A stretch of 36,716 bases of DNA from a virus. The translations under genes were made by a program, and so were the position numbers. Location: the IMG/VR virus record IMGVR_UViG_3300009428_002742, positions 1 through 36,716 of that record. The stretch is one strand, 5' to 3'. Shown here one piece after another: positions 5,169 through 25,612 of the stretch. Within the stretch, counting starts at the first letter, position 1. Every line of letters starts with the position of its first letter. The notes under the pieces are model-generated. The model was given only the letters and a program-made list of their open reading frames with translations, was not told the origin of the DNA and made no database searches.

Positions 5169-6725
5169 CTAATCAAATAGTTCATCAAATTTTGCTTCAG
5201 CGTTAATTGTTTTCTTGCCAATTTTTAATCTAGTTCCGATAATATGTGTCCAAATACTGTTTGATTGCGTATCAGTTCCGTACTTATTAATGACATCAAG
5301 ACTTTTTTGTCTATCATTTTGTGCAAAAATTTCATCAGCTATGTCTCTGAACTTGTGTTGAGCAAGTGGAGTATCGTAAACCATCATATAAGGATATTCA
5401 CCTTTGTCGTATAATTCGTTAGCACGTTGAGTACTTTCAATGTGCATCCATACATTATGGCCCATTTGTAGTGCATAGCTAAATGAATCCCAACTTGTAG
5501 AATCTTTCTTGCGTACAACAGGATTACCTCTGTTATCTAGTATTTGATTGCCGTGTTTATCAATATCAATATCGCCAGCCTTAACTTTAGGATGACCAAT
5601 TTTATTTTTATCACCTTCAGCATAGAAACAAATATCATTCATTTTACAATGTTGACTAATTGGCGATTCTTCAAATGCTGCAAGTATACCTTCTTGTACA
5701 ATAGCATTACCAAATTGTCTTGTGTCTGAAGAATATTTTAATGCATCAGCACCTGGTGCCATCATATAACTCCATTTACCTTTATGTTCTGCCCGAATAG
5801 TATGATAAATTTGTCCATTAGCAGTTGCTAAGAAAGGACTAGCACAATCGTATGTAATCATAAAATTCTTATTATGATATTTACGTACTGCACGTTGTAT
5901 ATCAGTAAGCAAAGTAGCCCACTCAAGTTTACTTGTACCTAAGAAGTGCATTACATCATGTAATCCTTCTTCAAGTAATCCATCGTGTATCATGTGTACA
6001 AGTCGTTTTAAAATAAGATGAACATCACACATATTTTGTCCGCCCATTGCCCATCCATCAAAATGCGTATCAGGATATACCCTAGGATCACAATAGTCTT
6101 TAAACTCTTGATACCAACTTTCTGCATTAGTATGATTACTACCTTGCAGTACATTTAACACTTTAAAGTTGCCACGTCTATTATCCATGTAATATCTTGC
6201 ATTAATATGAGTTGCTGTAACAGCATCGTCATAACTCTTAATATTACTTGCTTCTGAAGCTTTAGGATCTTGGAATGTCCAAGTTGGAATATCCAACATC
6301 ATTCCATAATCCATATATTCTTCCATCCAATTAACAACTAGTTCACGCTTCTTCATTGCCTTCGGGCATGTTTCGCTGGTCCAGTCGCCTTCCCAAAGTC
6401 CTTTAGCAATTTGGAAACCACCTGAGTCGCCCAGCAACCAAGTGTTTTCTCTATCACGATTTCGAACCATATCTTCTTTTTCGCTAAACTTATTTGTATC
6501 TAATTCAGCATGACCTGCTGAATAGAGCGCCCACTTATAGTGGAACGCTCCTTCTTTAGAATTTAGGAAGTTCATTCCTTCCATTCCGTTTAATCCGCTA
6601 GGAATACGTATAGGATCAACATAATCACTAAATCGTTGCTTGCCTATAAATGTAGCATAAAATCCACTTATACTAGGTAAGAATACAGCATAATCGTTTT
6701 GTGTTTGTGTTAAGTTTGTTTTCAT
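5169..6725 (-). CDS. DpdA-like tRNA-guanine transglycosylase paralogue
   Basis: A 518-residue protein with the tRNA-guanine transglycosylase (TGT) core. The base-binding DSGGFQ is at residues 100-105, a glycine loop WAMGGQ at 225-230, and the nucleophile region YDCASP at 292-297, with D293 at the position of the catalytic Asp. Downstream, C360, C366 and H378 could form a variant metal site replacing the usual CxCxxC...H. Phage TGT paralogues of the DpdA type swap guanine in DNA for a 7-deazaguanine such as preQ0, protecting against restriction. The long C-terminal part and the phage context favour DpdA over a tRNA enzyme, and a QueD-like protein lies in the same operon. The TAATG junction with the clamp stop indicates coupled translation. 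FolE, QueE and QueC are not in this window, so the precursor may come from the host or from elsewhere in the genome. Confidence 0.75.
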   Translation of the reverse strand: MKTNLTQTQNDYAVFLPSISGFYATFIGKQRFSDYVDPIRIPSGLNGMEGMNFLNSKEGAFHYKWALYSAGHAELDTNKFSEKEDMVRNRDRENTWLLGDSGGFQIAKGLWEGDWTSETCPKAMKKRELVVNWMEEYMDYGMMLDIPTWTFQDPKASEASNIKSYDDAVTATHINARYYMDNRRGNFKVLNVLQGSNHTNAESWYQEFKDYCDPRVYPDTHFDGWAMGGQNMCDVHLILKRLVHMIHDGLLEEGLHDVMHFLGTSKLEWATLLTDIQRAVRKYHNKNFMITYDCASPFLATANGQIYHTIRAEHKGKWSYMMAPGADALKYSSDTRQFGNAIVQEGILAAFEESPISQHCKMNDICFYAEGDKNKIGHPKVKAGDIDIDKHGNQILDNRGNPVVRKKDSTSWDSFSYALQMGHNVWMHIESTQRANELYDKGEYPYMMVYDTPLAQHKFRDIADEIFAQNDRQKSLDVINKYGTDTQSNSIWTHIIGTRLKIGKKTINAEAKFDELFD

Positions 6726-7475: not shown

Positions 7476-7504
7476 ATTATATTATACATTTTATGTAAAG
7501 TCAA
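7476..7504 (-). promoter_or_regulatory. sigma70-type promoter (TTGACT-N17-TATAAT)
   Basis: On the minus strand TTGACT (7504-7499), a 17-base spacer and a perfect TATAAT (7481-7476) lie 23 bases before the clamp ATG at 7453. A second overlapping TATAAT is at 7486-7481. The spacer contains the inverted repeat TACAT-AAA-ATGTA (7485-7497). It should let host RNA polymerase transcribe the clamp, DpdA-like and QueD-like operon early. The -35 box overlaps the stop region of the preceding cytidylyltransferase gene. Confidence 0.7.
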
Positions 7505-7914
7505 GTGTTTTTCTTACAAACTCGGTCTCTTAAATCAGTTGACGAAAATCGATGATTACGATGATTAAAATACAATTCTATTCCTAATTTTTGACAAGCA
7601 TCTTTACCAGTAAAATCTTTATTTTTATATTCATCACCAAGAATACGAATATTAATTGGATACATTTGTAAAATATCAATTAAGTCTGATTCTGTAGCAT
7701 AGCATATAATTTCATCAACGTATCTTACAGCAGCAAGTTGGGTGTAGCGTTCTACTACAGTTTGTATAGGTGCATTTTTTTCTTTTCTGTCAACGGATGG
7801 ATCTATTTGTAATCCGCATATCAAGTGTTCACATTGTGCTTTAGCTTCACGTAACATACTAATATGTCCAGCGTGAAGTAAATCAAATGTCGAGGCTGTA
7901 AATCCTACCTTCAT
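7501..7914 (-). CDS. TagD-like cytidylyltransferase
   Basis: A 137-residue nucleotidyltransferase. It has the N-terminal motif GFTASTFDLLHAGH with the HxGH signature, the central ILGDEYKNKDFTG strand-loop (equivalent to RTEGISTT-family middle motifs), and a C-terminal FSSTDLRDRV in place of ISSTxIR. This is the glycerol-3-phosphate/ethanolamine-phosphate cytidylyltransferase family, which activates a phosphorylated alcohol or sugar with CTP. I chose the ATG at 7914 because a GGAG Shine-Dalgarno sequence lies seven bases upstream; the frame extends six codons further. It starts one base after the DNA polymerase stop, so the two are co-transcribed. The substrate is unknown: phospholipid head groups, a sugar for the nearby glycosyltransferase, or a nucleotide cofactor are all possible. 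Confidence 0.8.
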   Translation of the reverse strand: MKVGFTASTFDLLHAGHISMLREAKAQCEHLICGLQIDPSVDRKEKNAPIQTVVERYTQLAAVRYVDEIICYATESDLIDILQMYPINIRILGDEYKNKDFTGKDACQKLGIELYFNHRNHRFSSTDLRDRVCKKNT

Positions 7915-7915
7915 T

Positions 7916-10585
7916 TTAATCTCCAAAATCAAATAAGCTTGAAAAAGTATTATGTCTTTTAGTATCTTCTAGAGGATAATTAAGCACTCCAATTAAATTA
8001 TCTAGTTTATTATCGATAATTACTTCAGCCATTGCTGAATCATCAAATGGAAGTTCTTTAAACCATTCTGGCATACGTAATTCATCTGTTGGATATGCAA
8101 CACTTGTATAACCTAGTGGATTAGCTTTTAGTTTACAAACAATAACTTTCATACCGTCAACAATCTCTTGTGAGTACTTGTCTCCGTTCATACGCTTGAG
8201 TGTATTCCAGTTAATACTTGCTCGAACGTGTCCGGGCATGTTAGCTCTGCCTTGCTTTTCTTCTAAGCGTCGGTAGTGACCGACTTTGTTTGCACGTTTA
8301 GGCGATCCTTTCTCCCAACCTGGTCTTTCGTTAAACTCCAATCGAAACTGAGTAATTCTTTCAAGAACATTAGCTTGTTCGGCATCAGTAAGTACCATAA
8401 GTAATAGTTCGCTTAAAAATTCTTGCATAAACACAGGCGTGTCTGATCTACGCAAGTCTAACCCCATTGCTTTTACTTTGCCTTGTTTTCCGTCTGTATC
8501 GCTGCGAAATCCTTCAATGTCGTATACTAATGCTGCATAACGTTTCTTAGTAATATACAATCCACTTTGTGCAACAATTTCTCTAGCTGCTGCAATAACA
8601 TCGCTACGACTTTTTGGACAGTGAAATGCTTGTAGCATAAAACTTGGAAAAGTAGTATTAGCAGCTTCGCATACTTGATCATATAATGTAATTACATTGT
8701 CTTTAGACCAAGGAATCTTTCCAGCATCAATATCATCTTTGAGTGTAGGGTATGCACTAAAGTAACAAGAGTCAGTATCGCCATATATCATTGCTTTACC
8801 TACATGGTCATATTCACCTGTAATAGTCTTATTAACTTCTGCACTCATATGCTTAACAATAGTACGACCAGTTAGTGTTGTACTTTGTCCAATACGTTTG
8901 TCAAAGAATCTACAACCTGGATTAAGGATAGCACCATACAAACTGTTTAAATTAATCTTCTTAACTAGTTGTCGTTTGTCCCAATACTCGGTCTCTGCTG
9001 CATTACCTGCATCTTTTGCTTTTTTTAGCATCTTCTGCAAGTCTTTACGTTCGCTATACCAACGTTTTAGTAGTCCTGGAATAACACCTTCGAACTCTGT
9101 TGTAAATATTGTTCCATTTGCACTTAGCATCCACGGTCGGTTGCTGTCAAATATTGCATTATATATTTCTGCACCACTTAATACTTCAGTATTACCATTT
9201 TCAAACTCAACAGTAAGTGCAATGTCCTTACGCTTTTCCATAACTGCTTCGTATTCCTCAGTAGCAAAGCGTCCTTCCCAACTACCTGCAAACGATTTTT
9301 TCTTAAGAGTCATGTCTTCGTGTACGCGAGCATTACTTATTTCTGGACGTATTTGTCCTATAACTGTTTCGGGCGCCATATTTAATGCACGAATTACACT
9401 AGGATATAGTGAGTTCAAATCCATAGACGCGACCCATTTGTGCAAGCCCTTCTTTGGAAATGCAACATATGCGCCCGCTGCCTGAGTAGCTTCATCGTCA
9501 CGTTTCTTACGATTAGGAACTTGCAATCCACGATAATGCGACTCATTAACAATAGCCTGTTCTGTAACAGCCACTGCACCCATAGTTGTTTGCAGCAACA
9601 CAGTATTTGCATGAGCAAGTTCATTACTTAAATCAATAAAACGTAGCTTCTTATCTAGTTTGTCAAGTAATGCAGTATCTTGGATGTTATATTCAATAAA
9701 CTTTCTAAAGTCATTGTTGTATAATGAATCTAACGTACCTTCGTATGGTACTTTATTTTCGCCAACTTCAACTTCGCCAATAGCATCAAGTCTATATGTA
9801 TGACGCTCTTCGTATGTGTATTTACGATACAAGTTCAAACTGTCTAAGTGTACACGCCCAACTAAATCAAATGTTTGACTGGTCTTACCGTATTTTTCGT
9901 ATTCTCTTTTTCTAGGCAATTGTCCCCATAGACAAAATCGTCTTGTATCATCTTTACTAAGTACACGACTAGTTCTATTTACAGTGTACGGAATATCGTA
10001 ACCTTCGCTGTTCCAACCTGATAAAATGTCGGCATCTTCAATTAATGTTAAAAAAGTGTCAATCATTTCACTTTCTTTTTCAAACAACATTACATTATCA
10101 ATGCCTTCAAGTTCGTCTTTAGCTTGATCCATTGTAAGGGTCTTTGGCGGCACAGCCAAGCATATCATTGTTTCTAACCATTGTAGATAAACTGATATTG
10201 ATGTAATTGGCATAAACGGATCACTAGGATCAGCAAAGCCTCGCTCTGGATCAAAATCAGTTTCAATATCAAAAAAACAAATAATTAATTTTGGTGCATC
10301 TTGATTAAGATAGTTTTCACTTAAACATTGAAATATAGGATTAATATCGCTTTCAAATAATTCTTTATCTCTATTAATTGCAACTTCTTTACGAAAGTCT
10401 TTAGTGTTCTTACACACTATCCGTGTTAGAGGATCGCCATAGATACTCTTATACTTTCCTTTAACATCTTTATAGTAAAATGTATATTTAGATTGATATT
10501 CTCGGTACAATCTCTTACCGTCTTTACGTTCAACTACTCTAATAATATCAGAGTCTCTGTCGAAATAACCATCGACGTATGCCAT
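7916..10585 (-). CDS. family B DNA polymerase, gp43-type
   Basis: An 889-residue replicative polymerase. The 3'-5' exonuclease motifs are FDIET (about 105-109, Exo I), GWNSEGYDIPY (Exo II) and YNIQDTALLDKL (Exo III). The polymerase motifs are DLNSLYPS (motif A, about 390), KINLNSLYGA (motif B) and YGDTDS (motif C, about 600). Length is close to T4 gp43 (898) with no intein or split. All catalytic acidic residues are visible, so it should be active with proofreading. It starts at ATG 10585 with a TAGGAGAG Shine-Dalgarno sequence, 23 bp after the DsbA-like gene, and both probably use the sigma70-type promoter at 10901-10929. No polymerase-clamp loader genes other than the probable clamp are in the window. 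Confidence 0.97.
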   Translation of the reverse strand: MAYVDGYFDRDSDIIRVVERKDGKRLYREYQSKYTFYYKDVKGKYKSIYGDPLTRIVCKNTKDFRKEVAINRDKELFESDINPIFQCLSENYLNQDAPKLIICFFDIETDFDPERGFADPSDPFMPITSISVYLQWLETMICLAVPPKTLTMDQAKDELEGIDNVMLFEKESEMIDTFLTLIEDADILSGWNSEGYDIPYTVNRTSRVLSKDDTRRFCLWGQLPRKREYEKYGKTSQTFDLVGRVHLDSLNLYRKYTYEERHTYRLDAIGEVEVGENKVPYEGTLDSLYNNDFRKFIEYNIQDTALLDKLDKKLRFIDLSNELAHANTVLLQTTMGAVAVTEQAIVNESHYRGLQVPNRKKRDDEATQAAGAYVAFPKKGLHKWVASMDLNSLYPSVIRALNMAPETVIGQIRPEISNARVHEDMTLKKKSFAGSWEGRFATEEYEAVMEKRKDIALTVEFENGNTEVLSGAEIYNAIFDSNRPWMLSANGTIFTTEFEGVIPGLLKRWYSERKDLQKMLKKAKDAGNAAETEYWDKRQLVKKINLNSLYGAILNPGCRFFDKRIGQSTTLTGRTIVKHMSAEVNKTITGEYDHVGKAMIYGDTDSCYFSAYPTLKDDIDAGKIPWSKDNVITLYDQVCEAANTTFPSFMLQAFHCPKSRSDVIAAAREIVAQSGLYITKKRYAALVYDIEGFRSDTDGKQGKVKAMGLDLRRSDTPVFMQEFLSELLLMVLTDAEQANVLERITQFRLEFNERPGWEKGSPKRANKVGHYRRLEEKQGRANMPGHVRASINWNTLKRMNGDKYSQEIVDGMKVIVCKLKANPLGYTSVAYPTDELRMPEWFKELPFDDSAMAEVIIDNKLDNLIGVLNYPLEDTKRHNTFSSLFDFGD

Positions 10586-13085: not shown

Positions 13086-13970
13086 TTAACCTTTGTTTTG
13101 CTTAGGATAGTATATTTCGCCTGTGTTTATATTTTCAATCTTAGTTATTCTTGTTTTACCTTTGAATTTAACATCTCGATTAATTCTTCTTGCTGCTGAA
13201 CCTGATTCTTTTCGTGAATCGGTTGTATCAGGACTAACCTGTGGCATCAACTTAGCTAGTAAGTCTTCCATAGTTTCTCTAAATGTATGATATGCATCAA
13301 AACTAACTGCATTCCAACGGTCCCTAGCATCTTTGTACGTACTAGCATTTTGTAATAACTTTAGTGCCATTTGTTTTATTAACGGGCCTGCAGCTTTTCT
13401 AGGCTGCGCATTATTACGTAATATTTTTATAGTTTGATTCATAATCATATCTGCAGATTTGTCAGCATTTTTAATCATCCAATCAGTAGCCCACCCTTGA
13501 TTAGGATAACTTAGATCTGAATATTGATCTTTTTCTTCAGGTTCTAACGGATCGTCGGTTGCCCAACTAATAGGAGGGTCTTGTGGCCTAGTTGGTGCTT
13601 TTAATGATATTTTACTCATAACCTGTTGTGCAGCATCACTAATACTAGAAACTATTTCGTCTTCGTCGAGATCTGACGAACCTTTTGCATATTGTAGTGT
13701 AACTAGTGCTTTTTCGCCGCCGTGTGATCCAACTGCTTCGTCTGCAATAGTTTCTGCAAATTCTTTATTATGAGCAACATATACTCCGCCCATACTAGCT
13801 GTGCTTGCACCATACGTGTCAACATCATATGTTTTCTTAGGAGGAGTTGCTAATAATCCATTTTTTAGTATACTACGCACTAGGTTGGTACTAGTACCGT
13901 GATACATTATTTCTGTACGCTGCTGTTGACGTTCATTTAAATGTACAAATATTATTTCTGAAAATCGCAT
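13086..13970 (-). CDS. ADP-ribosyltransferase-fold protein with capsid-targeting-like leader
   Basis: A 294-residue protein. The leader MRFSEIIFVHLNE ends in L-N-E, a T4 gp21-type cleavage pattern. Residues 21-45 (IMYHGTSTNLVRSILKNGLL) are the HGTS...IL..GL start of the ADP-ribosyltransferase/KptA fold, with H24 as first catalytic residue. GGVYVA at 61-66 supplies the Tyr motif, and DLDEDE at 100-105 a candidate acidic catalytic site. Such enzymes move ADP-ribose from NAD to protein or nucleic acid. T4 Alt is the classical example: packaged in the head, injected, and modifying host RNA polymerase. The C-terminal half is basic and helical. A TAATG junction couples it to the 174-residue gene. 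It could instead be an RNA 2'-phosphotransferase relative. Confidence 0.7.
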   Translation of the reverse strand: MRFSEIIFVHLNERQQQRTEIMYHGTSTNLVRSILKNGLLATPPKKTYDVDTYGASTASMGGVYVAHNKEFAETIADEAVGSHGGEKALVTLQYAKGSSDLDEDEIVSSISDAAQQVMSKISLKAPTRPQDPPISWATDDPLEPEEKDQYSDLSYPNQGWATDWMIKNADKSADMIMNQTIKILRNNAQPRKAAGPLIKQMALKLLQNASTYKDARDRWNAVSFDAYHTFRETMEDLLAKLMPQVSPDTTDSRKESGSAARRINRDVKFKGKTRITKIENINTGEIYYPKQNKG

Positions 13971-16300: not shown

Positions 16301-16464
16301 TTTTTACTCCAGTAAGCTAAACGTTCATTAGTACTTAGTCTAGCTTTTTCGTGTTCTTTGTGTTTTTCAACATATTTTTTCATCTCAGCATTTCGCCATT
16401 GCCGGCTGTATCCGTCAGGATATTCTTTGATTATTTCTTTCCACTTTTCATGTTCGCACACCAA
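16297..16464 (-). CDS. small hypothetical protein in the gap, TTG/GTG start
   Basis: The 130 bp between the CCA-type gene and the 384-residue gene is open in one minus frame, giving about 55 residues. It includes CEHEKWKEIIKEYPDGYSR and then a highly charged helix ending ARLSTNERLAYWSKK. It has no ATG; TTG 16464 is preceded by GAGGA at seven bases, and GTG 16461 is next. Its TGA overlaps the next ATG (ATGA), the junction type used all through this block, which supports it. It overlaps the end of the CCA-type gene by 34 bp. Confidence 0.5.
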   Translation of the reverse strand: MVCEHEKWKEIIKEYPDGYSRQWRNAEMKKYVEKHKEHEKARLSTNERLAYWSKK

Positions 16465-19067
16465 TGATACATCCTCGCTTTCTCGCCACTTGCATTTTTA
16501 GCACGTTTGCGTAGTGCTGTAACACTACCATTGCAACTAGCACCTGAACGTTTTACACGTCCTGGTCTGCTTTTGCCTTTTTTCTTACCGTCGGCAAAGT
16601 TTTCAGGTACTGGTTCATATCCAGGCTCGGCTTTTTCCTTTGGATTAACAAGTAAAAAGTTTGTAGTACTTCCGGCATGTATAGATTTCTTTGTAAGTCT
16701 AAATCCTATTGCTGCTGCAAACTGTTTTCCAAATCTCTGATATAGTCGTTCTCGTCCTCCAGCATTTTCTTTACTTGCTGAAAACTCTATAGACTTTACA
16801 GGGTAATAAGTGAAATTATGGCTCATTTCTTTCCACCAGTCTTTAATAATTGCAATTACTGTAGCAAATATCTGATGTGCTCGTCCACCACCTGTTGTAA
16901 TCATTTCACCGTCTACTCTAAATTCAATCTCCCAATCACCATCTTCGTGAAAATCATTAATGGAGACTAGAAGTGTAGGTGCACCACGCACTGCGCTTTT
17001 GCCTTCAAAATTAAATTCACTAGAATGAGTGATAGTATAAGGAAGTACACTATCCAATGACTCAGTAACATCGTCTCTTAATTTTTTCCTACGCCTGCGG
17101 CCTGAAGCTTTTGCTGCTTTATAACTTTTTTTATATTTTTTAGACTTTAATTTTTCGTCAATCTTTTGAGTACTTTCGCCAAGCAGTTGATCTTTTGTAG
17201 CTTTATATCCACTTTGTTTCCATTTTTGTTTTAATAAATTTAATTTTTTACCTAAGTCTGGCCCTTTTTTAAATCCAGCTTGTATAAGATCATTTCCATT
17301 AACTGGAAATACTGGTGCTTCAAAACTTTTAATATGGTTAGCAAAAATTTCGTACTTGCCTAACATTTGAGCCCATCTATATAGTAGTATTTTTGGAGTG
17401 CCATCAACTATCATATCTGACAGTATTTTTTTGTCTATAGGTGAATTCGCATGTTCAACTAAAAATTTAAGTATATTGTTGTCAACATTACTAAGTTTCC
17501 AACGTTTGCCGATACTAGCATCGCCCAGTCTTGCAAGATTTACTAATTCGTAGTCTCCGTCAACCATTGCACTAATATTTTTATTAGATAATCCTATTGT
17601 TTTTAAAATTCCTGTACTAGACATTGCTGTTAGTATTTTTGCAATATTATTTCCAGATAAAATTTTACCCATTTCCATCCACACACGTTCAACACTTACT
17701 TTTGTAAGTCCTGTGGCGTTAGCTTTTATTGCTTGTAGCGTTTCTTTTTCAAATTTAGGATTATCAAGCCTACCTTGGAATCTAAAGTAGCGTAGTATAC
17801 GCAAGTAATCTTCTTGTATACGCCCAGCAGGATCGCCAACAAAACGACTTACTTTATTTTGCAAGTCATCCATGCCGTTGTGGTAATCAAATAAGTTTCC
17901 GTCAAAGTCCATGCTCATAGCATTGTATGTTAGGTCTCTGCGTAGTGCATCTTGTTCCCATGAACGCACAAATTCTACTGTAGCATGTCTGCCATCTGTT
18001 TCGGCATCAGAACGTAACGTAGTTATTTCAAATTCTTCGCCGTTGATTATAGCAGTAATAGTACCATGTTCAATTCCTGAGGGTATGTGCTTAATACCAG
18101 CACTATCAAACATTTTCTGCATTTCTACAGGAGTTGCATCAGTAGCAAGATCGATATCCTTTGGTGCTTTGTTTAGTACAACATCTCTAACAGCACCGCC
18201 TACAATTCTTATTTCAAATTTATTCTTAGTAAACAATTTGTTTAGCTGTTGCATTTCAGAAGTAATAGGTATTTTATACTCTTCGCTTTCGTTAATGCTT
18301 TCTTTAACTTGATTAGGTCTACGTAACATAAATTTATGCATTCTTGCAATAGCTTGGTCTGCATACTCAAAATTGTTTGCAGTAGCAAATTTTTTTACTA
18401 ATTTTTTATATAACTCAATTCTGCTGTCTTTAATATCTTTGCTAGTACGTGCTTCACCTTCGCGGTGTGCATCAAATTGTATACTTTCAACTTCACGATG
18501 TTCGTCCATAAATTGTTTTATAGCTGATATAACACTCGAAAATACTCTGTATTCGTCTCCCATTCCTGTACGCTTTACTTCATTATCTCCGTGTTCGTTT
18601 CTCATTGAGAATGAAGTTTCGTAGTTTTCACTGTCCTTTGACATTGGTTCAAATCTTACCATATATTCATGACCGTTGTCAGTTTGAAACCTAGCTGCAC
18701 TAAGAGCACCTTGGGTTTGCCAGCTTAATGCATACGGTCTATCAAATAATTCGTTAAGTTGCGATTCACTTGTGACTTTGTTTGCTGCTTTTTCGGCATT
18801 AGGACCTTGTGGATGTTTAGGATTAATGTGTACAACATCTCCGTTCATCATATCACTTACACTAGCACTGCGTCCTACTTTATCTAATAACTGGTGTAGT
18901 GGATCTTTGTCATCATACCCATCAGTTTCGTACCCTAATTTACCTCTAACTTCGCTGCGCCTACCTGTTTTAGTATCTTTAACATGTAATACCAGCATGT
19001 CAGCACTGCGGTCACGCTCGAGGCGAAGCATATATCCTTCTTGTAGGGTAACATCGTTAATCTTCAT
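16431..19067 (-). CDS. CCA-adding/poly(A) polymerase-type enzyme embedded in a repeat-flanked virion protein
   Basis: An 878-residue multi-domain protein. The leader MKINDVTLQE ends in L-Q-E. Repeat A is about 110-240 (VFSSVISAIKQFMD...IQFDAHREG...RIELYKKLVKKFA). A class II tRNA nucleotidyltransferase spans about 270-630: GGAVRD 290-295, DIDLAT with catalytic D304/D306, RRDLTYNAM 376-384 and the nucleotide-templating EDYLR 419-423, all intact. A basic linker follows, then repeat B (about 680-795, IFATVIAIIKDWWK...IEFSASKEN...RERLYQRFGKQFA), clearly related to repeat A. The C-terminus has C845 and C870 around KARMYHW. Candidate (I/L)-x-E sites fall at domain borders: 104-106, 258-260, 636-638. 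It would add CCA or A to RNA 3' ends. The leader suggests packaging and processing in the prohead; that is inference. Confidence 0.85.
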   Translation of the reverse strand: MKINDVTLQEGYMLRLERDRSADMLVLHVKDTKTGRRSEVRGKLGYETDGYDDKDPLHQLLDKVGRSASVSDMMNGDVVHINPKHPQGPNAEKAANKVTSESQLNELFDRPYALSWQTQGALSAARFQTDNGHEYMVRFEPMSKDSENYETSFSMRNEHGDNEVKRTGMGDEYRVFSSVISAIKQFMDEHREVESIQFDAHREGEARTSKDIKDSRIELYKKLVKKFATANNFEYADQAIARMHKFMLRRPNQVKESINESEEYKIPITSEMQQLNKLFTKNKFEIRIVGGAVRDVVLNKAPKDIDLATDATPVEMQKMFDSAGIKHIPSGIEHGTITAIINGEEFEITTLRSDAETDGRHATVEFVRSWEQDALRRDLTYNAMSMDFDGNLFDYHNGMDDLQNKVSRFVGDPAGRIQEDYLRILRYFRFQGRLDNPKFEKETLQAIKANATGLTKVSVERVWMEMGKILSGNNIAKILTAMSSTGILKTIGLSNKNISAMVDGDYELVNLARLGDASIGKRWKLSNVDNNILKFLVEHANSPIDKKILSDMIVDGTPKILLYRWAQMLGKYEIFANHIKSFEAPVFPVNGNDLIQAGFKKGPDLGKKLNLLKQKWKQSGYKATKDQLLGESTQKIDEKLKSKKYKKSYKAAKASGRRRRKKLRDDVTESLDSVLPYTITHSSEFNFEGKSAVRGAPTLLVSINDFHEDGDWEIEFRVDGEMITTGGGRAHQIFATVIAIIKDWWKEMSHNFTYYPVKSIEFSASKENAGGRERLYQRFGKQFAAAIGFRLTKKSIHAGSTTNFLLVNPKEKAEPGYEPVPENFADGKKKGKSRPGRVKRSGASCNGSVTALRKRAKNASGEKARMYHWCANMKSGKK

Positions 19068-19770: not shown

Positions 19771-20799
19771 TTATTTTCCTTGTAGTTTTTCTCTTGCAGC
19801 TTGTCTTGCTAGAACTTTTCTTATAATAGCGGCAGACTTAGTACTAACAGTTGACGGAATTTCTACATCATAGTCTGTTGCTGGCTTTATATTGTTTGAT
19901 ATAGGGTTTGATGATATTTTATTTTTTCGATTGCCGCTGTGATATTTACTAGGAGGCTGAGGATTTTTCCATTCACGACTGGAGCCCATGCCACCTAATC
20001 TATCTGTAGCTTGTTCATTAGTATTATGATGATTTGGACTTTTCATTAATCTCTTTGCATCAGCTGAAAGTGAAACATGATCCTGTTGTTTATATCGTGT
20101 TGGAGCAGGTTTAGTCTTTTTCTTATTAGGAAATATTGGATTAGCTTTTCTATCCGAAGTAGGCGATACAGGCTTTACTCTTTTTGTACCAAATATACTT
20201 TCATCCATTGAAGCAACTCCTTTGCCCATCGCAAGATATTTTTTAACTATATCAAAATATAAATTTCCATTAATTTCTGCATCTATATCAACACCTGACA
20301 ATTTGGCAAATTCTTTAGGATTATTATTTTTTACTGCCATACGTAAGTCAGATGCACTGGTAATCCTAGGAGTAGGTATGTGTTGAATTTTAGAAAATTC
20401 ATAATAACCGTGACGACCTTCAGATCCGTTGTATCTTTCAAGAGTGTTTATTACCCATGACTCGTCTGTGTATACTTTTAAATTAACCTGTCCATGATCA
20501 TTGTATAATTTACTAGCTAAAGAAAACCAACTTTCATGTGGCACAATATGACTAGTAACTTCAGGCATTATTAGTTTCATTGCTTGAATTTTAATATTAT
20601 ATGGAAGAGGGTCTTTGTTTTCGCTGCCTTTACCAGTGTGTGTTTTTGGCCCAACCATTTCTGGATTAGTGCCTACATACCATGCATCATTTTTAGCAGC
20701 CATTTGCCATGCTGCTTTATGTCCTTTGTGTGGAGGATTAAACCTTCCAAATATAAGACCTACACTGTTAGTTGATTCAAACAACTGTCTAAGTTTCAT
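19771..20799 (-). CDS. HxGH nucleotidyltransferase (NMNAT/cytidylyltransferase-like) with capsid-targeting-like leader
   Basis: With the ATG at 20799 (SD AGGTGG; ATGA overlap with the preceding stop) the protein has 342 residues; the frame continues four codons upstream to a GTG. The leader MKLRQLFE ends in L-F-E. GLIFGRFNPPHKGH at 14-27 is the nucleotidyltransferase HxGH motif, and ITSASDLR at 146-153 fits the (I/T)SxTxxR motif. This order and spacing match nicotinamide-mononucleotide adenylyltransferase or related cytidylyltransferases. The C-terminal 140 residues are basic and low-complexity (PNKKKTKPAPTRYKQ...), perhaps binding packaged DNA. With an ADP-ribosyltransferase-like protein in the same cluster, NAD supply is one possible role; substrate is not proven. 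Confidence 0.75.
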   Translation of the reverse strand: MKLRQLFESTNSVGLIFGRFNPPHKGHKAAWQMAAKNDAWYVGTNPEMVGPKTHTGKGSENKDPLPYNIKIQAMKLIMPEVTSHIVPHESWFSLASKLYNDHGQVNLKVYTDESWVINTLERYNGSEGRHGYYEFSKIQHIPTPRITSASDLRMAVKNNNPKEFAKLSGVDIDAEINGNLYFDIVKKYLAMGKGVASMDESIFGTKRVKPVSPTSDRKANPIFPNKKKTKPAPTRYKQQDHVSLSADAKRLMKSPNHHNTNEQATDRLGGMGSSREWKNPQPPSKYHSGNRKNKISSNPISNNIKPATDYDVEIPSTVSTKSAAIIRKVLARQAAREKLQGK

Positions 20800-21935
20800 T
20801 GTGGCGTCCACCTTTTTCTTGGGACAAGTTTAATATTGCCAAATTGTTTAGTATTGTCAGCATATCTTACTCGTCCTTCACCATTAGTATCCCAAATATC
20901 ACCTTGTTCGCCTTCTATTTGATCTATGACATTATCTTTAGCATCTTGTATCTGTTTAACTAACGAAAAAATTATAGATAGCGGATCATTGTGTGTTGTA
21001 CTATTTAGCTGTATTATTTTCTCTTGTTTTGGCTTACTAACCTTACTACCGCTTAGCCATTTTAAAAAGTCTTTTGTTCCTAGTCTATCAAGATATTTTA
21101 ACTTTGCAGTTTGATTTACATAGGTATATATAATCTTCTTTAGATCACTTAGTCCTTTTACACCTTCTAGGAATCCATTTATTGCTTGATGATTGGCTTT
21201 TGCATATTGTTCAATGTCTTGTAGTTGACTGGTGTTAATTTCAATAGGTCTACTATTATATATAGGCTCTAACACAATTATTTTACTATTTGTATTAAAT
21301 TCTGAAAAATTGTTTTTTGGTTGTTGTGCTGAATCAGGCAAGCCCCACTGAGAAAATTCAGCATGACCAACTACCATTATTTGTGCTTTGGATATGCGCT
21401 TGCCTAGCTCGCTGGACGACTTTACATGATATGCAGTTTCTGATCTTGGATTAGGAGAAAATGTATATACTCCGTCAACAGCAGCCTGTGGCTGTGTAAA
21501 CAGTCCGTCACCGTATACAAATCCCTGATAATCTTTTGGAGTTGCAGCATCAAACAGTGGATACATGTTTGCAAAATCTTTTGCAAATTTTACACGTTGT
21601 TGTTTTTCTTCTGGAGTCTTTGGATTACCTGATTGGTTTGCTATAAAATCTTTGATAGCATTAGGACTATCGCCTAGTACTCCTCGTGACCATTGGTTGT
21701 GGCCTCCTAGTATTAGTGGACCGCCTGCACGTTCTCTGCCCCAGTATATTTGAGGATTGCCGTCCCATTTCATTCTAATTGAACGTGAACCTTTGCTATC
21801 GGCAAAGTCTGTTAGATGTTCAACAGCTTCAATAGCACCTTGGGCACCATGAAAGAATACAAGATCTTCTAAATGATTAAAAGCTCTGCCTTGTTGTTTC
21901 GATTCCGAAATAATGCTGAATTCGGAGAAGCGCAT
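20796..21935 (-). CDS. ligase-like covalent nucleotidyltransferase fold, with capsid-targeting-like leader
   Basis: A 379-residue protein. The leader MRFSEFSIISE ends in I-S-E. RMKWDGNPQIYWG at 54-66 carries K-x-D-G, the lysine-adenylation motif I of ATP-dependent DNA/RNA ligases and capping enzymes. FVYGDGLF (139-146), DGVYTF (154-159) and YHVKSS (169-174) come in the order expected for motifs III, IV and V. The region after 200 is helical and unlike known ligase C-domains. It could seal or nick-activate nucleic acid, or be an inactive relative with a structural role. It overlaps the NMNAT-like gene by 4 bp and lies 2 bp from the 116-residue gene. Confidence 0.6.
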   Translation of the reverse strand: MRFSEFSIISESKQQGRAFNHLEDLVFFHGAQGAIEAVEHLTDFADSKGSRSIRMKWDGNPQIYWGRERAGGPLILGGHNQWSRGVLGDSPNAIKDFIANQSGNPKTPEEKQQRVKFAKDFANMYPLFDAATPKDYQGFVYGDGLFTQPQAAVDGVYTFSPNPRSETAYHVKSSSELGKRISKAQIMVVGHAEFSQWGLPDSAQQPKNNFSEFNTNSKIIVLEPIYNSRPIEINTSQLQDIEQYAKANHQAINGFLEGVKGLSDLKKIIYTYVNQTAKLKYLDRLGTKDFLKWLSGSKVSKPKQEKIIQLNSTTHNDPLSIIFSLVKQIQDAKDNVIDQIEGEQGDIWDTNGEGRVRYADNTKQFGNIKLVPRKRWTPQ

Positions 21936-21937
21936 AA

Positions 21938-22288
21938 TTAGTATACCTTATTGCGAAAGTTTTCAATTTCATCGTTTAGTATTTTACTTATACACTCTTT
22001 CTTATCAGAGTTCAAGAGAAATTCTTCAGGTAATCTATTAATTTCGTATTTTTTTAAATATGATTCTACAGCAGAATCAACAATTGGAATCATATTTTTT
22101 TTATTATATTTTTTACCATCTTGTACACAATTTTGTACATTTAATAGTTCGGGGTACAATGATTGTCTATAAAAATCTGGATCATTTTTCATATAGATTA
22201 TAAGGTCTTCAACTTCATTAAACGGAAGTTCATCGCCCATTCTTAAGTCGTCAGTTGACCGATTATCAAAAATTTCATTTATTTTCAT
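21938..22288 (-). CDS. small conserved phage protein with MKINEI leader
   Basis: A 116-residue helical, acidic protein. The leader MKINEIFDNRSTDD lacks a clear (I/L)-x-E site. The body (LPFNEVEDLIIYMKNDPDFYRQSLYPEL) has a pattern I have seen in marine T4-like phage proteins of unknown role. The C-terminus reads ECISKILNDEIENFRNKVY. It lies between the ligase-like and the large peptidoglycan-binding genes, with one or two bases separating them. There is no membrane segment or Cys cluster. Confidence 0.65.
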   Translation of the reverse strand: MKINEIFDNRSTDDLRMGDELPFNEVEDLIIYMKNDPDFYRQSLYPELLNVQNCVQDGKKYNKKNMIPIVDSAVESYLKKYEINRLPEEFLLNSDKKECISKILNDEIENFRNKVY

Positions 22289-22289
22289 T

Positions 22290-25019
22290 TTATCTCTTCT
22301 TACCTAATTTAGCAATAGCATTTGCTATTGATCCTGAAAACTTTATTCCTGATTCTTTGTACATACTTTGCCTAACTACAGTACCGGCTTTTGGTTTCCA
22401 GTTTCCACTATTTGTACCTACCCCGGCGCCGGTATCCACATTATCATTGCGTCCTTGTACACTAGATGATGCGCTACTTCTTCTTTGTAAGGCAACCCTT
22501 GCTTGTCGTCTACGTAATTGCTCTGCTTTGCGTTGTTTAGCTGCTTTATTAAGTTCTGCTGTTTTTGCAGCAATAGCAGTATCAACTCCGCCACGGTTAC
22601 CGGCTGTGCCAGCATTGGCAGCTGCGCCACCGGTAGTGGCTACAGTTTGATCAGGTGCATTTTTTAGTTTATCACTAACATCACCTTTGGTTTGTTGAAA
22701 CTGTGCTTGTGCTGCTGCCGAACTTGCATCTTGTTGTGCTTTTAAATCAGCTGCTGCTTTTTCAGCATCACTTTGTACACCAGTTACATTACCTGCTGCC
22801 ATAGATTTGTTTACATTATCAGTTGCAGCATCAACTTCGTCATCAGTTGAATCAACTGGAGCAGTTGTAGTTACAGTTTGATCAGGTTCAGGATCGCCTG
22901 CTGCTGCACCTGCTGCTACACCTGCTGGTGCTTTGCCGCCTTTTATTGATCCTGCCGCAACACCCGCCGCACCCGCTGCACCTACACCGTCGTCTTGATC
23001 TAAATCTGCTTTTGTTTGTGCAGCCATTGCAGCAATTTCTGCATCTTGGTCAATAGGTTCAGGACTAGCTTTATTCATAGATGCTAGTGTATTTGGACCT
23101 GCATCGCCATCAGCTGATAGGCCGTATGCTTGCTGCATTGCTTTTACTGCTCTTGCTGTGCCTTTGCCATACCATCCGTCAGCAGTGCCTGCATCAAAAC
23201 CGTTGTTGTTGAGCCATTGTTGCATTTGTTTAACTGCTGGAAGTTTTCTTTTGCCGCCGCCACTTGCTCTCCACAAGCTAGTAGAAGTATCAAATGTTGC
23301 TTCGTTCATCATATTGATAATATCGTTTGCTAATGATTCAGTGTTCTTATCAATAAATTGTTGCGCTTTACCGCCTAGATTTCCATCGTCTCTCGGCATA
23401 GCACGAGGCGAAAGTTTTTTCTTAACGACACCTGATGTAGCAGCAGGTGTAGCAGCAGGTGCAGCAGCAGTGTTTTGAGAATTAGTGCCAGCACCAGCAG
23501 TGTTTTGAGAATCAGTGCCAGCCCCAGCAGCTTGTCCGGCTGCTTGTGATTTTACCCCTTTAAGCCACGCATCGTACCTGGGGGTAGAATTTTTAAACTG
23601 TATCTTCATTGCTTTAACTGCGTTTGGATTTTTTAATAGTTCCAACACCTTCTTATAATCCTTCTTTTTAAGAAGTTGCTGTATTTGTGTAACTATTGCA
23701 GCCAGTTTAACTGGATCTGTTTCTACTGTCGAAACTACTGGTGCATCGGCCCGCGGCCCTCCGGTCCCGTCCTGTTTTTCACGTTCTCTTTGGGCAGCAG
23801 CTTTTTCTTCTACATCTTTAACCATTTTTTTGTAATTGTTTGGCGCCACTCTTTTCAGCATAGTAACAACTCTTGGATCTTGTAGTAATTCTAATAATGC
23901 TACAAAATTTAGTTCTTTATCTAATTTTGCTATTTGTTTAAGTACTGCATCTTGTTCGGGTTTTTGCATTGGTTCTGGTCCAGGCGCAGGCTCAGGCGCA
24001 GGCTCAGGCTCAGGCCCATCTACAGCAGGTTGAACAGTCTGAGTAGGAAATACTTCTTCATAGCGGGTTAATGCAGACTGGATTTGAGTATCAAGAGCAG
24101 GATCTACTCCTAAGTATTGTTTAATCTTATCATATAATACTTTTATTTCCTGCTTTTCGAGCATAGAAAGTTCTTCTTTTAGTAATGTATTTTCAACTAT
24201 TGAAATTAAATGTCTAAAATCAGTTCCAGCATTTTCAGGACTATTAGTAAGTTTATTTAATAGTTCGTTAAATCGTCTAAGGTCTCCTACTAAAGATTGA
24301 TTTCCTCTACGCTTTGCGTCACCAACTGGATCTGCTGTTGCATCATCTGCTGTATCTGCTGCATCAGGTTGGTCAAGTGGTATTCCTTGATTACTAAACA
24401 AAGGACCGTCTGTATTCGTCGGTAGTGCAGATTTATTTGCTGTCGCTGACGGCATTGGCAAGAGTAACAAATTATCTCTATCCCTGTTACCAAAGTCGCT
24501 AATGAATACAACATCGTGTGTATCTTTAAGCTCTTCTGCTTTTTCTGGAGAATATTTAAAAACATAGTCGTTGAGGCTACCTACTAGTAGTCTTGATACT
24601 TCTCTAGGTTGATTTGCAGTTCCTCTGCCGTCAGTTGGAGCATTAGACATTGCATCTAGACCATCAGTGTCTTGTTGATCTTGTGGGTTTGCTATTTCGT
24701 GCATTTTACTAAGAGTGTTAGTGCCTGCATCTCCGTCGACTTTTAATCCATATTTCTTTTGAAAAGCTTGTATTGCTCGTGCAGTGCCTCTGCCATACCA
24801 TCCATCAACTTTGCCAGCATCAAATCCTTGATCATTAAGAAACTTCTGAACTTCTGCTACATCATCTAATTGTACTGAGCCTTTTTTACTCTTGGCCCAA
24901 AGACTTGGAGTATTAGGATCTACGCCGGTAATTTCTGTTAAACTACGTTTAGGTAACGAGTTAATGGCCGATAAACGATTGCCCATTTCTCTAATTTGTT
25001 CTGCTACTGATTTTACCAT
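22290..25019 (-). CDS. large virion-type protein with two peptidoglycan-binding repeats
   Basis: A 909-residue protein from the ATG at 25019 (AGGAGG, nine bases away); the frame extends ten codons to a GTG without a ribosome site. PG_binding_1-type repeat 1 spans about 35-107 and repeat 2 about 580-650. Both read SLW..S..G then Q.(F/W)LN..GFDAG..DGWYG.GTARA..A.Q..YGL..DGDAG.NTL. Between them are helical repeats at about 355-410 and 435-490 (LELLQDPRVV.MLK versus LELLKNPNAVKAMK) and Pro/Glu- and Ala/Gly-rich linkers; the C-terminal 250 residues are Ala-rich. Repeats 1 and 2 would bind cell-wall peptidoglycan; no lytic domain is visible. (I/L)-x-E sequences (IRE, LTE) occur near the N-terminus. 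It is probably a head- or tail-associated structural protein. Confidence 0.7.
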   Translation of the reverse strand: MVKSVAEQIREMGNRLSAINSLPKRSLTEITGVDPNTPSLWAKSKKGSVQLDDVAEVQKFLNDQGFDAGKVDGWYGRGTARAIQAFQKKYGLKVDGDAGTNTLSKMHEIANPQDQQDTDGLDAMSNAPTDGRGTANQPREVSRLLVGSLNDYVFKYSPEKAEELKDTHDVVFISDFGNRDRDNLLLLPMPSATANKSALPTNTDGPLFSNQGIPLDQPDAADTADDATADPVGDAKRRGNQSLVGDLRRFNELLNKLTNSPENAGTDFRHLISIVENTLLKEELSMLEKQEIKVLYDKIKQYLGVDPALDTQIQSALTRYEEVFPTQTVQPAVDGPEPEPAPEPAPGPEPMQKPEQDAVLKQIAKLDKELNFVALLELLQDPRVVTMLKRVAPNNYKKMVKDVEEKAAAQREREKQDGTGGPRADAPVVSTVETDPVKLAAIVTQIQQLLKKKDYKKVLELLKNPNAVKAMKIQFKNSTPRYDAWLKGVKSQAAGQAAGAGTDSQNTAGAGTNSQNTAAAPAATPAATSGVVKKKLSPRAMPRDDGNLGGKAQQFIDKNTESLANDIINMMNEATFDTSTSLWRASGGGKRKLPAVKQMQQWLNNNGFDAGTADGWYGKGTARAVKAMQQAYGLSADGDAGPNTLASMNKASPEPIDQDAEIAAMAAQTKADLDQDDGVGAAGAAGVAAGSIKGGKAPAGVAAGAAAGDPEPDQTVTTTAPVDSTDDEVDAATDNVNKSMAAGNVTGVQSDAEKAAADLKAQQDASSAAAQAQFQQTKGDVSDKLKNAPDQTVATTGGAAANAGTAGNRGGVDTAIAAKTAELNKAAKQRKAEQLRRRQARVALQRRSSASSSVQGRNDNVDTGAGVGTNSGNWKPKAGTVVRQSMYKESGIKFSGSIANAIAKLGKKR
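23471..23530. repeat. two tandem 30 bp repeats
   Basis: Two adjacent 30-base units (tgttttgaga attagtgcca gcaccagcag, and the same with two changes) encode repeated AGAGTxSQNT residues in the large peptidoglycan-binding protein. A neighbouring gtagcagcag run at 23437-23470 encodes Ala-rich sequence. These look like recent slippage. Confidence 0.75.
23981..24016. repeat. short tandem repeat encoding Pro/Glu linker
   Basis: Repeats of caggcgcaggct/caggct units encode an EPxPAPEPAPGPEP linker between the first peptidoglycan-binding repeat and the helical duplicated segment. Confidence 0.65.
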
Positions 25020-25042
25020 TTTATGCTGCCTCCTTATACATA

Positions 25043-25612
25043 TTACCACTTCCTACACGACCAATAACGTGCTTTATGCCTGGGCCCAGGATTATCGCAA
25101 TTATGTCTAGCACGGAAACTTCTTCGACGTGCTGGGTTTGACTTTTTAATCTTTACGCCTTTTTGTCCAAAATTAACTTTTACTACATTACCATTTGGAT
25201 TCTTTACATATACTTTAAATTTCTTAACATCGCCTGCCATAGGCTTGCCTAGTTTAACATTGCGACCTTGATACTCTGCTTCGTCTATTTGGTCATCTTC
25301 GTTGTACCACATAACACCATAGTCTTCATAAAATTCATCATCATCTTCGTATGTAACTTCATCTGTTTCATCAAGTTCGTCGCCTGCACTTACTTCGATA
25401 TCAAAGTCGCTATAACCAGCTTCAAACATCATATTTGCTAAGTTAGCAGCATACTCATCTGACTCGTGTTCACTTAATTGCTTTGGTAGTTCAATTTGAA
25501 AAACAGTAGCACCCTGTGCCGACTCATAAATTTCTTGACTTTTGAAAATACTTTCGTCAAGCAATTTTGGCTCTTTTTGTTTTTCCATTACTACTCTAAT
25601 AAAATGTTCCAT
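25043..25612 (-). CDS. acidic protein with conserved basic Cys C-terminus
   Basis: A 189-residue protein. A leader with L-L-D-E (17-20) is followed by a very acidic middle (DELDETDEVTYEDDDEFYED) and a basic beta domain (QGRNVKLGKPMAGDVKKFKVYV...VKVNFGQKGVKI). It ends RRRSFRARHNCDNPGPRHKARYWSC, a module I recognise from many large marine phage proteins, with two Cys and His that may bind zinc. It is probably a prohead core or virion protein. A perfect TATAAATA lies 29 bp upstream, with a TTAGGAA ribosome site. Confidence 0.7.
   Translation of the reverse strand: MEHFIRVVMEKQKEPKLLDESIFKSQEIYESAQGATVFQIELPKQLSEHESDEYAANLANMMFEAGYSDFDIEVSAGDELDETDEVTYEDDDEFYEDYGVMWYNEDDQIDEAEYQGRNVKLGKPMAGDVKKFKVYVKNPNGNVVKVNFGQKGVKIKKSNPARRRSFRARHNCDNPGPRHKARYWSCRKW

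Follow-up and report, generated by a model that had tools for sequence, protein, structure and literature searches.

The gene at positions 20796–21935 (minus strand) of the viral DNA analyzed here encodes a 379-aa protein of the phage family DUF6267. From profile, model and alignment we predict it to be a divergent, RNA-ligase-like (KxDG) covalent nucleotidyltransferase that is paired with the NMNAT-like enzyme of the next gene and packaged with it by means of a leader, a reading to which we assign a probability of roughly 0.6. K56 would first bind a nucleotide covalently, most probably the AMP moiety of ATP, and this would then be transferred to an acceptor, for which the 5'-phosphate end of a nucleic acid is the likeliest candidate. 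A C-terminal OB domain is lacking, and the protein has instead a helical insert that separates motif III from motif IV. The enzyme would work together with the adenylyltransferase encoded next to it. In the lineage of this phage each of the two has a leader of the capsid-targeting kind, after whose Glu the prohead protease probably cuts, so that the head would contain both proteins and deliver them to the cell along with the DNA. DUF6267, with more than 470 phage records and at least 560 confirmed viral-contig stretches, would thereby be assigned an activity that can be tested, namely covalent nucleotidyl transfer at K56.

DUF6267 is a widespread phage protein family

The window, by which we mean the whole stretch of DNA analyzed, is a 36.7-kb virus record whose DNA polymerase has its nearest relatives in jumbo myoviruses, for example Sinorhizobium phage Phosso and Agrobacterium phage Atu_ph07 (45–49% identity). 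The protein encoded at 20796–21935 matches Pfam PF19782 (DUF6267) with an E of 1.7e-18 and 67.6 bits against a curated cut-off of 27, and PF19782 was also matched by all 52 members of relative set A2. With its relatives the protein also belongs to phrog_455, and in cyanophages this gene is annotated as cluster T4-GC 71: all belong to one family by profile and share their gene order with the nucleotidyltransferase described below. The open reading frame is real and belongs to the DUF6267/phrog_455 phage family. The window clade differs from PF19782 at large in its capsid-targeting-like leader, which is absent from many cyanophage members.

At least 600 stretches of viral contigs match the family, at least 560 of them confirmed, and a cyanophage ortholog used as query returned 471 matches in phage records, mainly from T4-like cyanophages; the named phages with the family are myoviruses. 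A cellular origin was looked for: nearly all of the 14 matches in genome contigs fell in phage-fragment-like marine MAG contigs, and no cellular home was found among the 14. The libraries searched assign no function to DUF6267 or phrog_455, and a literature search on DUF6267 found nothing.

Invariant residues mark the candidate active site

Conservation was assessed in an alignment of 230 distinct relatives, which fall into five groups and diverge down to ~20% identity. Identical in 230/230 sequences are K56, D58, G59, P61, D143, Y169, H191, K333, E353, G354, V356 and K369. The invariance of K56, D58, G59, P61 and D143 across these relatives is far above chance. Motif I, K56-W-D-G-N-P61 (21753–21770; all features of this gene lie on the minus strand), contains the predicted nucleophile, K56, and the motif III region FVYGDGLF (residues 139–146; 21498–21521) contains the acidic residue D143. 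The original prediction had read ligase motifs I, III, IV and V in the strings KWDG (56), GDGLF (142), DGVYTF (154) and YHVKSS (169). Its coordinates, strand and strings are all correct, and motifs I (K56) and III (D143) hold in every relative. In contrast, DGVYTF and YHVKSS are unconserved and are not motifs IV and V, because position 154 is E, D, N or a gap across relatives, G155 is variable and K172 is P, R, A or K.

The true motifs IV and V lie instead near the C-terminus. Motif IV is EGRVR (residues 353–357; 20865–20879), in which E353, G354 and V356 are invariant, and it reads EG[YF]V in cyanophages. Motif V is IKLVPR (residues 368–373; 20817–20834), with K369 present in 230/230, V371 in 228/230 and R373 in 229/230 relatives. 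The motif V consensus is therefore K-[LI]-V-x-R: the first lysine is invariant, a valine replaces the second lysine of KxK, and an arginine stands at +4. In sequence, E353-G354-x-V and K369...R373 have the order and spacing of genuine motifs IV and V. The counterpart stretch of T4 Rnl1, with EGYV at 227 and KIK at 240, is EGYVAVMKDGSHFKIKSDW, and the motif IV–V stretch of the P-HM1 ortholog is EGYVLHHNGDMIKLVNR; both have a short spacing between the motifs. Among the features of the KxDG superfamily, a K-x-D-G motif I followed by the motif III acid and then the E-G of motif IV is present in 230/230 relatives.

The window protein ends ten residues after K369 and so has neither an OB domain nor motif VI. 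A C-terminal OB domain with motif VI, following motif V, is a trait of ATP-dependent DNA ligases and capping enzymes. A family-specific helical insert, recognized in the alignment and in the secondary structure of two models, spans residues 235–341 (20913–21233) between motifs III/IIIa and IV; it is shorter in cyanophage orthologs.

Predicted structures resemble KxDG ligases

AF2 modelled the window protein with pLDDT 89.1 and pTM 0.83, poorly only at residues 1–16 and the last five. When the Foldseek candidates for this model were compared by VIA-align, KxDG ligases took all 50 listed rows, at Z 4.4–5.9. Since a VIA-align Z below 8 can reflect merely a common arrangement, we made a second model from a minimal, 298-aa cyanophage ortholog sharing ~20% identity with the window protein; this model has a pLDDT of 90.3 and a pTM of 0.86. 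Naegleria RNA ligase (NgrRnl) was the best match to the ortholog model (Z 8.8, rmsd 3.8, 177 aligned), with T4 Rnl1 at Z 7.6 and both Rnl2 and fungal Trl1 at Z 7.0. Ligases again filled 50/50 listed rows, with 11 chains at a Z of at least 8. The two models have alignments in part in common and are thus not fully independent. Both match a fungal tRNA ligase, and both place the helical insert ahead of motif IV. In Foldseek searches against the PDB neither model gave a significant match (best E 0.65 for the window protein, with T4 Rnl1 second, and 0.14 for the ortholog). An unrelated fold would have weighed against the idea of a ligase; the fold predicted in both models instead resembles KxDG ligases, and we consider a KxDG superfamily fold very likely.

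Sequence searches gave no link to ligases in Pfam, NCBIfam, PHROGs, a PDB sequence search, HMMER or hhalign. None of the 52 relatives had a Pfam ligase match, and hhalign comparison with T4 Rnl1 and Rnl2 (E 0.11 and 0.23, outside the motifs) and with gp30 indicated no relation. The profile search against ligase families that had been suggested as a check thus returned no ligase. NgrRnl shares the KxDG core with DUF6267, but no sequence similarity was found between them, and DUF6267 has the helical insert and a KxV..R motif V. Additionally, NgrRnl carries an N-terminal OB domain, which the DUF6267 protein is without. T4 RNA ligase 1 (gp63) resembles DUF6267 in structure and in its short motif IV–V spacing but differs in having a C-terminal domain past motif V and a Glu, rather than Asp, as the motif III acid; hhalign found no match over the motifs.

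The missing second lysine of motif V, the Foldseek E-values and the null HMMER and hhalign results count against a ligase-type enzyme. The earlier proposal of covalent transfer to K56 draws support from the predicted fold and from the invariance of motifs I, III, IV and V, but from no sequence-profile match. We regard active covalent nucleotidyl transfer as probable, and for a nucleic acid as the acceptor the odds seem about even.

An HxGH nucleotidyltransferase gene accompanies DUF6267

The next gene (19771–20799, minus strand) encodes an HxGH nucleotidyltransferase, NMNAT/NadR-like by profile, with GRFNPPHKGH ... SASDLR and its own leader, MKLRQLFE. By coordinates, its start overlaps the DUF6267 stop as ATGA. 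This conserved partner had gone unnamed in the original prediction. A nucleotidyltransferase gene lies within 1 kb downstream of DUF6267 in 224 of the 231 loci with room for one (67/74 window-type, 64/64 P-HM1-type, 26/26 S-H9-type and 67/67 short-type), and the two genes usually overlap, or are separated, by a few bases. In cyanophages the DUF6267 gene adjoins DNA metabolism genes and the nucleotidyltransferase, not fibre genes. In S-PM2 a single open reading frame, p142, combines half of the ligase-like domain, the C-terminal one with EGFV and VKIVDR, with the HxGH domain, which comes next in the same frame, and a 591-aa S-PM2 protein is a structural relative in BFVD. T4-GC 71 is split in the S-PM2 record NC_006820 (L401, 7026–8805), where p141 ends in another frame than p142, unlike in the 591-aa protein; this split may be a sequencing difference. 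The window also encodes a second, separate HxGH nucleotidyltransferase (7501–7932, minus strand), which resembles RfaE domain II and glycerol-3-phosphate cytidylyltransferase and is without a leader.

Among solved structures the partner profile best matched NadR and NMN adenylyltransferases, and in NCBIfam it matched NMN/NaMN adenylyltransferase models. Because the NadR/NMNAT matches are weak (NadR, at best, E 0.0015), an NMNAT-like substrate is a lead and not a result. These matches and the near-universal pairing would fit an NAD+-linked variant, in which the DUF6267 enzyme, like LigA, uses NAD+ as its AMP donor and the partner remakes NAD+ from NMN and ATP in a closed two-enzyme cycle. The single lysine of DUF6267 motif V recalls the KFP of LigA motif V, and H21, E23 and D24, which precede motif I and are near-invariant (229/230), sit where the NMN-binding domain of LigA would be. 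DUF6267 and LigA also have the KxDG core in common. However, LigA domain Ia is not recognizable in DUF6267, nor are its OB, Zn finger and BRCT domains; LigA gave no profile match, with only 55 residues ahead of K56; the structural lists are topped by RNA ligases, not LigA; and the NMNAT substrate of the partner is itself putative. We therefore consider the NAD+-linked variant unlikely. If true, the cycle would constitute an NAD+-dependent ligase family outside LigA.

A capsid-targeting-like leader and predicted packaging

Residues 1–12 of the window protein (MRFSEFSIISES; 21900–21935, minus strand) form an N-terminal leader that is disordered in the model, poorly conserved and similar to T4 capsid-targeting sequences. 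It has the 10–20-residue CTS-like form, with a Glu as possible cut site. Identity among relatives is 36% in the leader, which varies in length, versus 79% for residues 16–80. The leaders of several relatives (among them MHTFKQFLAEN, MYSFKQYLNEA and MFSFKQFLTEE) closely resemble MKTYQEFIAEA, the T4 capsid-targeting sequence with which IPII/IPIII begin. In T4, propeptides of 10–20 residues direct proteins into the head and are then cut off (PMC5694885). The likeness to the T4 internal proteins (IPI-III, Alt) thus covers the position, length and letters of the targeting sequence. The T4 head cargo includes an ADP-ribosyltransferase and an anti-restriction protein but no ligase.

The leader pattern M[KR]xx[EDQ][FILVY] occurs in 8/9 minus-strand open reading frames between 13086 and 22288 versus 0/33 elsewhere in the window (Fisher p 8e-8, for a pattern picked after the data were seen). 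The ninth is the partner nucleotidyltransferase, whose leader starts from the second Met (MKLRQLFES). The protein had been placed in a cargo cluster at the outset, and these counts bear that out. The cluster includes a leader-bearing 116-aa protein of unassigned function (21938–22288, minus strand), a neighbor in 48/80 relatives. Adjoining it at 22290–25049 (minus strand) is the gene for a 919-aa protein, a long low-complexity chain with two peptidoglycan-binding domains. In an isolated phage, Methylophilales phage Melnitz-3, DUF6267 (leader INFSKYITED) and the nucleotidyltransferase are two of four consecutive genes with capsid-targeting-like leaders.

The partner enzyme has been detected by proteomics in virions of S-SM1 (PMC3037559), S-CREM2 (PMC10665884), S-SCSM1 (PMC9602691) and S-SZBM1 (PMC9146016), with possible carry-over noted by the authors of two of these four papers. 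Its N-terminus, read for S-CREM2, S-SCSM1 and S-SZBM1, has a leader in all three. The DUF6267 ortholog of S-SZBM1, SSZBM1_141, is leaderless and absent from the virion list of that phage (PMC9146016), so that packaging is not taken to be family-wide, although the absence may reflect abundance. Another protein found in those virions and encoded beside the nucleotidyltransferase, S-SZBM1_139, was considered as the ligase-like protein and rejected, as SSZBM1_141 is the ortholog. Since the leadered partner is in virions and the leaderless SSZBM1_141 is unlisted, we suggest that presence of the leader decides packaging. The window protein is predicted to be packaged in the head of its own phage, which we hold to be fairly likely; the few enzymes that phages carry in their heads would then include one of ligase type. 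Together with a near-universal partner and, in some lineages, a packaging tag, the proposed chemistry makes the biochemical question posed by this gene of many T4-like marine phages a defined one. In an extended form of the NAD+ cycle, the two enzymes, sometimes one chain, would be packaged together and act on nucleic acid ends as soon as infection begins, modifying or sealing them; we judge this quite improbable.

Neighboring genes and alternative functions

Two further leader-bearing proteins of the cluster are an 878-aa CCA/poly(A)-polymerase-type enzyme (16431–19067, minus strand; PF01743, 9e-36) and an ART/PARP-like protein (13086–13970, minus strand; PF00644, E 2e-4, below cut-off). They had been read, together with the ligase-like protein, as a repair kit in which ligase, CCA enzyme and KptA-like ART would act sequentially on broken tRNA or other RNA ends after injection. 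The leaders and clustering of all three proteins, the strong CCA head domain and the fungal tRNA ligase among the structural matches are consistent with such a kit. As a conserved unit, however, it fails, with a CCA domain near DUF6267 in 1/80 relatives (solely the near-identical sister contig) and an ART domain in 2/80. The CCA enzyme and the ART-like protein are local additions. Moreover, no kinase/phosphatase partner was seen and the ART match is to PARP, leaving a packaged repair kit doubtful. Apparent CCA matches in 44 loci were traced to other domains of the long 878-aa protein and rejected. That protein is extended by additional domains at both termini. Segments of these extensions, but not the CCA domain, recur in many relatives, and the CCA domain may for this reason have been inserted into a widespread cargo protein.

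The KxDG motifs define only the first step of the reaction, and the adenylyl group could instead be passed to a protein or small molecule in an AMPylation-like modification of a host target. The helical insert is specific to the family, and T4 Alt provides a precedent for a virion-delivered modifier of host proteins. The structural matches, however, are all nucleic acid ligases, and no KxDG enzyme is known to us to modify proteins like this, making such a target improbable as well. A role in assembly like that of T4 gp63 (Rnl1), which promotes tail-fibre attachment, with catalysis secondary, would suit the double annotation of T4 Rnl1 and a family of myoviruses but is very unlikely given strictly invariant active-site residues and a cyanophage gene set apart from fibre genes.

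T4 gene 57B (L420, 11953–12411) is labelled 'RNA ligase' in NC_000866 yet encodes only 152 aa, and the label is possibly wrong. Lastly, the window encodes a 518-aa protein (5169–6725, minus strand) with no Pfam hit, whose LGDSGGFQ recalls tRNA-guanine transglycosylase and DpdA-type enzymes, the latter of which put 7-deazaguanine into DNA.
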